Source: Algoriphagus sp. (lineage in GTDB: Bacteria > Bacteroidota > Bacteroidia > Cytophagales > Cyclobacteriaceae). From it: DNA of 64,000 nt. The notes under the pieces are model-generated. The model was given only the letters and a program-made list of their open reading frames with translations, was not told where the DNA came from and did no database searches. Shown here one piece after another: positions 61,821-64,000 of this stretch. The position numbers and the translations under genes are program-made. The DNA is taken from assembly GCA_029945945.1 (NCBI GenBank), contig JAQSDM010000005.1, positions 62,001-126,000 of the forward strand, read 5' to 3'. Within the stretch, counting starts at the first letter, position 1, and each line of letters begins with the position of its first letter.

Positions 61821-61917
61821 TGAAATCCCAAAGGATTTACCCCTGTTTTAGTCTTAATTATTCTTAAGCAAAATAGTATAACAGCCGTGAAATCTTAAAT
61901 TTCTTCGATAAGTGCAT

Positions 61918-61947
61918 TTGGAAAAAATCTAATAATGGGTACCTTTG
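61918..61947 (+). promoter_or_regulatory. Promoter of tRNA-Arg
   Basis: TTG at 61918-61920, 19 bp, TACCTTTG at 61940-61947, an exact match. The start site would lie just before the tRNA. Confidence 0.65.
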
Positions 61948-61958
61948 CAAACCGAAAT

Positions 61959-62032
61959 GGCTTTGTAGCTCAATTGAATAGAGCACCTGATTACGGCTCA
62001 GGAGGTTTCAGGTTTGAATCCTGACAAGGTCA
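61959..62032 (+). tRNA. tRNA-Arg (anticodon ACG) with an unusual A19-U56 elbow pair
   Basis: 74 nt, full cloverleaf: acceptor GGCTTTG/CAAGGTC (two G-T pairs), discriminator A, D-stem GCTC/GAGC, anticodon stem CCTGA/TCAGG around TTACGGC (anticodon ACG), 5-nt variable loop, T-stem TCAGG/CCTGA. The D-loop is AATTGAATA and the T-loop TTTGAAT: position 19 is A instead of G and position 56 is U instead of C. A20 and C35, arginine identity elements, are kept. CCA is not encoded. Confidence 0.9.
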
Positions 62033-62033
62033 C

Positions 62034-62060
62034 TAAAGCCCGATCAAACGATCGGGCTTT
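62034..62060 (+). terminator. Terminator of tRNA-Arg
   Basis: AAAGCCCGATC / GATCGGGCTTT perfect stem with a short loop, then a T-rich tail. Confidence 0.9.
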
Positions 62061-62156
62061 ATTTTTTACCTGTTTAGCAAGTATTTATATTCGTGACATC
62101 AGATTTTTTATTGATATTCGATTTCAATTTTATCTCAGATGAATAGTCGTTATTCA

Positions 62157-62399
62157 ATGAAAAAGCTTCCCCTGATTTTTCTTCTTTCATTTTTCAGTTG
62201 TGAGGTTATCGATGAACTCACGGATATCGAAGAAATCAAAGGGCCCTGTACAATTGTCCTAAAAGATGGAAGCACCTTAGAAACTACCGAAGATATTGAA
62301 CTGAGCGTAAGGACTCAGGCAATCACATATCGTGATGAGAATAAGAAGCTCCGGTCACTTTTTAAGGATGATTACCAAAGTTATACCTGCGGCAACTAA
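62157..62399 (+). CDS. Small putative lipoprotein of unknown function
   Basis: 80 residues from the ATG at 62157 (another ATG at 62139 would add six residues). MKKLPLIFLLSFFSC is a lipoprotein signal with Cys15. The short mature part is acidic with KDGSTLETTEDIELSV and has two more cysteines (in GPCTIV and YTCGN) that could form a disulfide. I do not know the family. The gene converges with the GH140-like gene, and the stop codons overlap by 4 bp. Confidence 0.72.
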   Translation: MKKLPLIFLLSFFSCEVIDELTDIEEIKGPCTIVLKDGSTLETTEDIELSVRTQAITYRDENKKLRSLFKDDYQSYTCGN

Positions 62400-63766
62400 T
62401 CTCCTGATTCCAAAATCAACACCCAGTCATTTCCTCTTCCTTCGGTTGGGGGTGTGATGCTCACATTTGGACCGTTCGAAAAAGATACTTCCATTGGGAA
62501 ACTTACCCCTGTTCGCGGGTCAAACCATTTCCCTGTGAATTTCTCCCCATCCAAAGCAGTTAGATTCAGGTTCGTTTTTCTTCCTGTCGGAAAGTAAAAC
62601 ATTGCAAAATTACCAGATTCATCCCGGGTGGCTGCCACATAAAACTCATCGTCCTCCTGAGAATCTGTTATTAATGTCTGATCCGAAATCCTGGAAAAGT
62701 ATTCCTGAGAAAGCATCAGATTTTTCAAGTGTTTCATCTGATTGGCAACTTCCAAATCCAGGGATAATTTCCATGGCTTCAGAGGTGCATTCACCGGAGT
62801 TTTGTCCAGATCATACATTTGCCAAACTGCATGGCATCCATATGTCTGACCTGCTGCACCGGCAAATACATTCCAATACATGATTTTCCGGATGTCTGTG
62901 GCTTCGCTGTAGCCAAATTCTTTTGAATTGAAGCATTTTGGATGCTCCTCGTACATGGGTTCTCCGTCAATTGTCGGTTTTGCCGGGCTAAGTGAAAGGT
63001 CATGACTGATTTTTTTATAAGTCGGCTGATCTGGACAATGACCCGTTTGGTGCATGTTGAAGCTTAGCCACTTTTCTCCATGGAACCAATTAGAGCTTCC
63101 CCCCGGACTGGCGGGCTGAGGGTGAAATGTGATCAGTTGGAGATAAGCAGGATTTTGAGATTCCACTATTCCCCGCGCCATTTCATTCCAGACTTTTACA
63201 TCTTCTGAGTTCTCTCTTGGATTTCGGTCACCTCCTAAAACCCAAATGACGTTTGGCTGATCTTTGTATCGGTTTCCAATCCATTTTCCATACGAATATG
63301 CTGTCTTGGTGGTAAAGATTTCCGGACCCAATCCCCAACTGTCTTCAAAAAGCTTATCCCCCCAGGTTGGTAAAAGTGCGATGTAAATATCCCTTTCCAA
63401 GGCCATTTGAATCACTTTATCTACATGACTGAAGTAGGCTTCGTTGTACTCCCATTTTTCCAGAGAAAGAAAAGGTTTGTCCCCGTTTGCATTGGGTTCG
63501 TTGATACCATCCAATTCTGAAAGAACCACTGCCTGAACCACATTGAATCCCTGAGATTTTCTTTTATCCAAATAGAAAGCGGTTTCTTCTGCATCGCAGC
63601 GATGAAAGAGTTCCCAGGCCGTATCCGCCATCCAAAAGAATGGTTCACCGGCCGAGGTCATCAGATATTTATTTCCGGCATGAATCACCAATGGACCTTT
63701 GATTTGCTGGGAAAAAGCAGACCCGCAAACCAAAGAGAAAAAGAGGATTAAGTTAAATTTTTGCAT
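62396..63766 (-). CDS. Glycoside hydrolase family 140-like protein (DUF4038 + C-terminal collagen-binding-like domain)
   Basis: 456 residues from the ATG at 63766, giving the signal peptide MQKFNLILFFSLVCGSAFSQ; a longer frame would include the terminator hairpin upstream. The TIM-barrel DUF4038 spans about 25-355: FFWMADTAWELFHR near 42-55, RKSQGFNVVQAVVL, WVLGGDRNP near 173-181 (acid/base Asp), and IDGEPMYEEHP near 269-279 (nucleophile region Glu). A small all-beta domain (about 370-456) closes it. GH140 enzymes release apiose from rhamnogalacturonan II. The upstream transporter end suggests a glycan locus to the right. Confidence 0.87.
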   Translation of the reverse strand: MQKFNLILFFSLVCGSAFSQQIKGPLVIHAGNKYLMTSAGEPFFWMADTAWELFHRCDAEETAFYLDKRKSQGFNVVQAVVLSELDGINEPNANGDKPFLSLEKWEYNEAYFSHVDKVIQMALERDIYIALLPTWGDKLFEDSWGLGPEIFTTKTAYSYGKWIGNRYKDQPNVIWVLGGDRNPRENSEDVKVWNEMARGIVESQNPAYLQLITFHPQPASPGGSSNWFHGEKWLSFNMHQTGHCPDQPTYKKISHDLSLSPAKPTIDGEPMYEEHPKCFNSKEFGYSEATDIRKIMYWNVFAGAAGQTYGCHAVWQMYDLDKTPVNAPLKPWKLSLDLEVANQMKHLKNLMLSQEYFSRISDQTLITDSQEDDEFYVAATRDESGNFAMFYFPTGRKTNLNLTALDGEKFTGKWFDPRTGVSFPMEVSFSNGPNVSITPPTEGRGNDWVLILESGD

Positions 63767-63770
63767 AAAA

Positions 63771-63790
63771 AAAGCAGCCCGAAGGCTGCT
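63771..63790 (-). terminator. Terminator between the transporter fragment and the GH140-like gene
   Basis: AGCAGCC / GGCTGCT stem with CGAA loop, followed by seven T in the minus direction. It lies nine bases after the transporter stop and just ahead of the hydrolase start. Confidence 0.85.
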
Positions 63791-63798
63791 GATTATTT

Positions 63799-64000
63799 TT
63801 AGTGAGCTGCGGAAACAGCTGGTTTCGAATTTTTCTGCCAAATAAAGAAGATAATAAAGAGCACAATTAAGAGACCGGGGAACAAGAGCATTTTCTGAAG
63901 AGTCTCCTGTCCTGCTGCCAATTCCAAAGCATCCCCCGTCAATCCGGCTGCAGCTTGTGATATTCTTGAAGAATCAATCCATGAGCCGATGATAGGCTGG
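63799..64000 (-). CDS. C-terminal end of a membrane transporter, probably MFS, cut by the window edge
   Basis: Only the last 66 codons are present; the stop is at 63799-63801 and the frame is open to the right edge. It starts QPIIGSWIDSS, has a linker with GDALELAAGQETL, and ends with one membrane helix (MLLFPGLLIVLFIIFFIW) and a basic tail. This arrangement resembles the last helix of Bacteroidota sugar-type MFS proteins. The fragment is too short for a substrate. Confidence 0.6.
   Translation of the reverse strand, partial: QPIIGSWIDSSRISQAAAGLTGDALELAAGQETLQKMLLFPGLLIVLFIIFFIWQKNSKPAVSAAH

Follow-up and report, generated by a model that had tools for sequence, protein, structure and literature searches.

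A natural A19-U56 elbow pair in tRNA-Arg(ACG), common to a Bacteroidota clade and matched on viral genomes

A tRNA-Arg(ACG) gene with a re-paired elbow

Within the window (the whole 64,000-nucleotide stretch analysed, from Algoriphagus sp.), ARAGORN predicts a tRNA-Arg(acg) at 61959-62033 on the forward strand. The Rfam family RF00005 matches 61959-62032 with 59.9 bits against a cut-off of 29, thus passing the Rfam tRNA threshold. Every stem pairs when wobbles are included, and the cloverleaf is intact: the acceptor stem is GGCTTTG/CAAGGTC, with wobbles G2.U71 and U4.G69, the D-stem GCTC/GAGC, the anticodon arm CCTGA-TTACGGC-TCAGG and the T-stem TCAGG/CCTGA, with a variable loop AGGTT (T48). 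CCA is not encoded, and CTAA comes after the discriminator A73. The coordinates of the features at the locus are collected in Table 1.

The G19-C56 pair closes the tRNA elbow and is taught as almost invariant. When numbered from the stems, the D-loop of the present gene reads A14 A15 T16 T17 G18 A19 A20 T20a A21 and the T-loop T54 T55 T56 G57 A58 A59 T60. The canonical G19-C56 is therefore absent, and 19-56 is A-U, a Watson-Crick pair by sequence. The other canonical elbow letters, G18 with U55 and U54 with A58, are present as read from the letters. Both letters of the A19-U56 pair claimed in the first-pass annotation were confirmed in this way, and the paired stems, A15-U48 and A20 were all as it had described them. 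Comparison with the canonical bacterial tRNA-Arg(ACG) of the inosine-34 type shows a shared cloverleaf, anticodon, A20, C35, G36 and A73, together with R15-Y48, G18, U54, U55 and A58, and a candidate TadA-like gene accompanies them; the difference lies in the elbow pair, which is G19-C56 there and A19-U56 here. The determinants of tRNA-Arg are given as A20, C35, U/G36 and A/G73 (PMC9976931), and A20, C35, G36 and A73 all occur in our sequence.

Upstream of the gene, TTTG at 61917-61920 is followed after 19 bases by TACCTTTG at 61940-61947, an arrangement that we take to be the Bacteroidota promoter consensus. The promoter had been described as exact, which holds against this consensus only and fails against sigma-70, since a sigma-70 scan returned no promoter. 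The claim of a terminator was borne out by a 12-pair hairpin and T run directly downstream. We compared by eye the flanks of 16 genes, namely the tRNA-Arg(ACG) gene itself and 15 from relatives. TACYTTTG is found upstream in 15 of the 16 (L051 differs), with TTTG ahead of it in 13 of the 16 (not L043, L048 and L050), and downstream all 16 combine a hairpin-like repeat and a T run. A gene beside the tRNA gene, at 62396-63841 on the reverse strand, encodes an Apiosidase-like glycoside hydrolase whose second domain belongs to the Collagen_bind_2 family.

Table 1. Positions of the tRNA-Arg(ACG) gene, its elbow letters and its flanking signals in the window
Feature	Position	Strand	Basis
Bacteroidota-type promoter, TTTG-N19-TACCTTTG	61917..61947	+	Sequence; similar elements in most of 16 flanks
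Mature part (1-73) of the tRNA-Arg(ACG) gene	61959..62032	+	ARAGORN, Rfam, stem reading
A15, partner of U48 (62007)	61973	+	Stem numbering; A15-U48 also in the G19-C56 relatives listed
A19 of the tRNA (G in nearly all tRNAs)	61977	+	Sequence, stem numbering
Anticodon ACG, inosine expected at 34	61993..61995	+	ARAGORN; TadA-like gene at another place in the genome
U56 of the tRNA, T in the DNA (C in nearly all tRNAs), pairs with 19	62015	+	Sequence, stem numbering
Intrinsic terminator, 12-pair hairpin and T run	62034..62069 (hairpin 62034-62061)	+	Terminator scan; flank comparison

The gene among the tRNAs of its genome

The genome assembly (14 contigs, 4.84 Mb) contains 38 tRNA genes, corresponding to 35 distinct tRNAs. 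ARAGORN on the loci identified a single ACG gene, the remaining Arg genes being TCG, TCT and CCT, and a search for another ACG copy among the 38 tRNA genes found none. The other 34 distinct tRNAs of the genome are G19-C56, the three further Arg tRNAs included. Of these, 33 were numbered automatically (31 plus the 2 other tRNAs of the window), and a tRNA-Met missed by the automatic rule shows GG and TTC by eye. Neither tRNA-Ile(GAT) nor tRNA-Ala(TGC) was among the 38 tRNA genes, which suggests that the assembly lacks the rRNA operons; a hidden ACG copy could therefore still exist. The suggestion that this may be the only ACG tRNA thus stands for the 38 genes, with the rRNA operons perhaps missing. 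The companion suggestion of a divergent second copy with a special role falls, given the single ACG gene and a state that is common to the genus and to about half of the class families read.

One ArgRS gene in the genome scores above the family cut-off. Since the other Arg tRNAs carry G19-C56, this single enzyme would have to charge both kinds of elbow pair. A TadA-like protein of 147 amino acids has TadA as its best family, with 129.7 bits, below the curated cut-off of 150. Arginine codons in the 45 ORFs of at least 200 amino acids in the window (CGU 63, CGC 63, CGA 111, CGG 90, AGA 242, AGG 88) indicate that a small yet real share of the codons falls to the ACG tRNA.

A19-U56 is shared by whole families of the class

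To read the pair in relatives, positions 19 and 56 were left free in a BLAST search, which gave matches in 45 of 58 genomes. Within the genus, all 32 genomes with a full-length match are A19-U56 (36 searched, source genome included); of the others, G007 gave a partial match and G004, G008 and G028 none at the set E-value, and G002 and G024, which have second copies, were read at one copy each. Single genomes from other families of the order were A-U in f2, f15, f16, f19 and f20, and G-C in f5, f8, f9, f11, f13, f17 and f18. A scan of the order with both positions free matched 145 of 164 genomes. In the 125 of these 145 that were read, by eye, we observed 50 A-U, 75 G-C and no mixed pair, with A-U falling in f1 (14), f2 (7), f15 (10), f16 (6) and f19 (13). 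Family f16 has both states, with 6 A-U and 10 G-C among the matches listed.

The phylum was scanned with a pattern restricted to R19 and Y56, which matched 283 of 374 genomes. The 139 of 283 that were read comprise 27 A-U and 23 G-C inside the class and 89 G-C outside it, again with none mixed. This pattern missed f26 and parts of f24 and f25, where the D-stem is GCGC (the GCTC-type pattern matched 0 of 11 genomes in f26). A GCGC-stem pattern matched 7 of 8 genomes, giving 6 ACG genes and 1 TCG gene, all A19-U56; G479 had no match with it. G671, G682 and G694 (f25, f26) are G-C in the phylum scan and may hold an extra gene. With these three excluded, the class has 12 families with A-U and 15 with G-C among the matches listed, f16 being counted in both. 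The fetched loci include 228 tRNA-Arg(ACG) records (225 distinct with flanks), of which 133 are A-U, 95 G-C and none other, many of them having come from patterns restricted to R19 and Y56. In genome G592, which has no ACG match, locus L238 is a tRNA-Arg(TCG) with A19-U56 that may have arisen from the ACG gene by a shift of anticodon.

A scan of named genomes gave at least 118 loci with a pattern that demands A15 and U48 and is therefore silent on G15-C48 tRNAs. The named loci among the matches listed comprise 42 A-U, all from Bacteroidota, 76 G-C and none mixed. The 62 Bacteroidota loci among them divide into 42 A-U and 20 G-C, and the other 56, of which 52 come from other phyla and 4 lack a phylum name, are G-C without exception. 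Among the matches listed, A-U accounts for Bacteroidales 20/20, Chitinophagaceae 5/5, Flavobacteriaceae 10/11 and Saprospiraceae 1/2, with one locus each in Weeksellaceae, Flammeovirgaceae and Leadbetterellaceae (Emticicia) and three unplaced; G-C was found in Hymenobacteraceae (4), Sphingobacteriaceae (3), Cytophagaceae (2), Spirosomataceae (1), Saprospiraceae (1), Flavobacteriaceae (1) and 8 less well placed loci. Saprospiraceae and Flavobacteriaceae hold both states among the matches listed, one side being a single MAG named by title. The A-U genera sampled include Prevotella, Alistipes, Flavobacterium and Chitinophaga, and both F. defluvii and F. gillisiae are A19-U56. The tRNA, the promoter and the relatives together also fit a Bacteroidota origin of the window. 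Under the same numbering, locus L270 of Leyella lascolaii is a tRNA-Ser(CGA) with A19-U56.

We considered A15-U48 as a possible part of the exchange, and this was ruled out, the listed G19-C56 relatives having A15-U48 too. Since relatives keep both letters, A19-U56 is conserved beyond chance. The first-pass annotation had argued that both partners changed with pairing kept, in a manner pointing away from error or decay, and this agrees with the same letters in relatives and with the lack of any mixed state in the cellular ACG genes read. Its impression of local rarity was mistaken: 32 of 32 genus genomes and about half of the class families read share the pair. Relatives with G19-C56, which it had named as part of the evidence that would go against its reading, do exist, so that this objection holds halfway; they belong only to other families or to other genera of f16, and in them both partners differ together.

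The exchange is thus old in the window's class and common to whole families, with other families G-C. The 89 listed genomes outside the class and the 56 listed loci outside the phylum are all G-C, which favours G-C as the ancestral state. An AsnRS tree was built from 76 genomes (4 of the 80 searched had no match); it requires 11 changes of the elbow pair, of which well supported branches force just 1, and the AsnRS gene itself may have moved between lineages. More than one switch is claimed only because family f16 holds both states. The path of change probably included an intermediate absent from the cellular genes read, for which G19.U56 is a likelier form than A19.C56.

Re-paired elbows in other isoacceptors and on viral contigs

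Outside the A34 tRNAs, A19-U56 in tRNAs of the GCTC/GAGC stem type was found in 11 of 296 genomes of the window's class, the isoacceptors being Gly-TCC, Arg-TCT, Arg-TCG and Ala-TGC. The tRNA-Gly(TCC) genes with A19-U56 are at L718-L723 and L726, in families f30, f31, f85 and f132 of this class.

The same stem pattern was used on viral contigs. Watson-Crick versions of 19-56 were found in at least 120 (A-U), 108 (U-A) and 55 (C-G) stretches, and the mismatches scanned, which were G-U, A-C, U-C and A-A only, in 47, 29, 29 and 2 stretches, respectively. ARAGORN confirms the patterned tRNA in 118 of the 120 A-U stretches listed, 107/108 U-A, 53/55 C-G, 45/47 G-U, 27/29 A-C, 26/29 U-C and 2/2 A-A, and the D-loop register of some unpaired viral tRNAs is doubtful. 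On 120 viral contigs picked for a G-C tRNA, 501 of 511 numbered tRNAs are G-C; the other 10 are 4 A-U, 1 U-A, 3 A-C and 2 C-C by an automatic rule that misnumbered some of them. From the counts of the viral scan, 19-56 acts in viruses mainly as a pair and not as fixed letters. Pairing is not absolute on these contigs, since G19.U56 (47) and A19.C56 (29) occur.

The viral tRNA-Arg genes (IMG/VR) resemble the present gene in having both 19-56 partners altered yet paired and in the same D-loop frame (AATTGAATA, AATTGTATA, AATTGCATA). Unlike it, they are mostly Arg(TCT), show every Watson-Crick version and lie on viral contigs. On contig L213, two tRNA-Thr are U19-A56, and a further tRNA-Thr and a tRNA-Tyr are C19-G56; contigs L166 and L186 carry tRNA-Arg(TCT) with U19-A56.

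Compensation within the elbow and its alternatives

We consider the gene to encode an ordinary elongator tRNA-Arg(ICG) with a compensated A19-U56 elbow, in which selection keeps the pairing and not the letters, a reading that we hold to be about 77% probable. One letter of the pair would have changed and its partner followed, as a compensatory replacement under a pairing constraint. The resulting A19-U56 would close the elbow and could adopt the same Watson-Crick geometry and place in the stack as G19-C56. The tRNA would be expressed, charged by the single ArgRS that also faces the G19-C56 Arg tRNAs, modified to inosine at 34 so as to read CGU, CGC and CGA, and presumably equal to a canonical tRNA on the ribosome.

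Engineered tRNAs are consistent with this reading. Either A19:U56 or C19:G56 restores charging of mt-tRNASer, and the authors conclude that the structural integrity of the pair is read there and not its identity (PMC10412605). A table of RNase P studies gives a G19A/C56U pre-tRNA 1.78 per min against 1.67 for the unchanged substrate, and a constant of 7.7 nM against 4.8 nM (PMC5039416). The constructs carry the same exchange as our gene, made by hand and functional in the assays; they are a mitochondrial tRNASer and an RNase P substrate, in contrast to a natural bacterial tRNA-Arg.

Plain neutral compensation does not explain the near restriction of the exchange to one isoacceptor in the class, nor does it explain an excess of tRNA-Arg among re-paired viral tRNAs. 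Against an independent G-C scan, in which Arg makes up 43 of 138 distinct viral tRNAs, the Arg share is 62/109 for A-U among the matches listed (Fisher p 6e-5), 63/81 for U-A (2e-11) and 24/40 for C-G (1.5e-3), in tests that ignore kinship. The share is 12/34 for G-U, with no difference from G-C (p 0.68 in the same test), 0/23 for A-C and 1/23 for U-C. A G-C control taken from the same contigs was biased and gave a larger excess. These counts suggest that re-pairing of the elbow is tolerated or favoured in Arg tRNAs, where an unpaired elbow seldom is, and that the intermediate was more likely G.U than A.C.

It is conceivable, although we regard it as improbable, that the re-paired elbow is a selected feature of tRNA-Arg, recurrent in Bacteroidota and in viruses, that alters how the elbow is read while the tRNA stays usable. 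The reader in question may be a nuclease, an integrase, the docking of ArgRS or a step on the ribosome. A somewhat less probable proposal places the constraint in ArgRS, which reads A20 near 19-56: tRNA-Arg would be held to strict pairing, slips would quickly be compensated and re-paired elbows would accumulate. A20 sits one base from position 19, and it is the main arginine determinant for the E. coli ArgRS, five residues of which it contacts (PMC9976931). The Arg excess among re-paired viral tRNAs, with a near absence among A-C and U-C, is as this proposal would have it. However, the viral counts ignore kinship among contigs, and three of the four Arg isoacceptors of the host keep G19-C56 beside a single ArgRS gene. 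Three doubtful Arg tRNAs on the G-C contigs, outside the scan pattern, are also numbered A-C (L762 seems to be misnumbered, and the loops of L750 and L817 are odd).

The over-representation of tRNA-Arg among re-paired viral tRNAs, in three different versions, could also reflect escape from a factor that recognises the elbow or its DNA, be it a toxin that cuts tRNAs, a nuclease of a defence system or an integrase acting at the T-loop of tRNA-Arg genes. We consider this quite unlikely for the present gene, which is a cellular gene common to whole families.

The T-stem differs between the two states as well. In a comparison of distinct Bacteroidota ACG sequences (75 A-U and 33 G-C after 1 of 109 was set aside), G occupies position 50 in 5 of the 75 A-U and in 25 of the 33 G-C sequences, with matching differences at 64, 51 and 63. 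The T-stem pairs 50-64 and 51-63 are linked to EF-Tu, and the exchange might be one part of a T-arm retuned, together with these pairs, for EF-Tu affinity or elbow stability. Exceptions occur in both directions, however, shared descent can explain the link, and a test of independent pairs on the AsnRS tree, with one usable pair on well supported branches, was not significant, which leaves this idea with very little probability. Finally, sequencing error, a pseudogene or misnumbering is refuted by the relatives, which have the same letters in dozens of genomes, intact stems and a similar promoter and terminator.

Overall, a compensated elbow in an ordinary tRNA-Arg(ICG) is the reading we prefer: the finding is real, its rarity was overstated and a special role is unsupported. 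In the open-access literature searched we recognised no report of a natural A19-U56 in a bacterial tRNA-Arg. The flat outer face of G19-C56 is a contact for ribosomal protein L5 and for many proteins and RNAs (PMC4810234). The A19-U56 bacteria and the viral Watson-Crick variants are natural material for asking which features of the elbow are read by shape and which by letter. Furthermore, tRNA finders and identity models should not treat G19 and C56 as fixed. The locus presents a natural, clade-wide re-paired tRNA elbow that is matched on viral genomes, an old shared variant and no one-off oddity.
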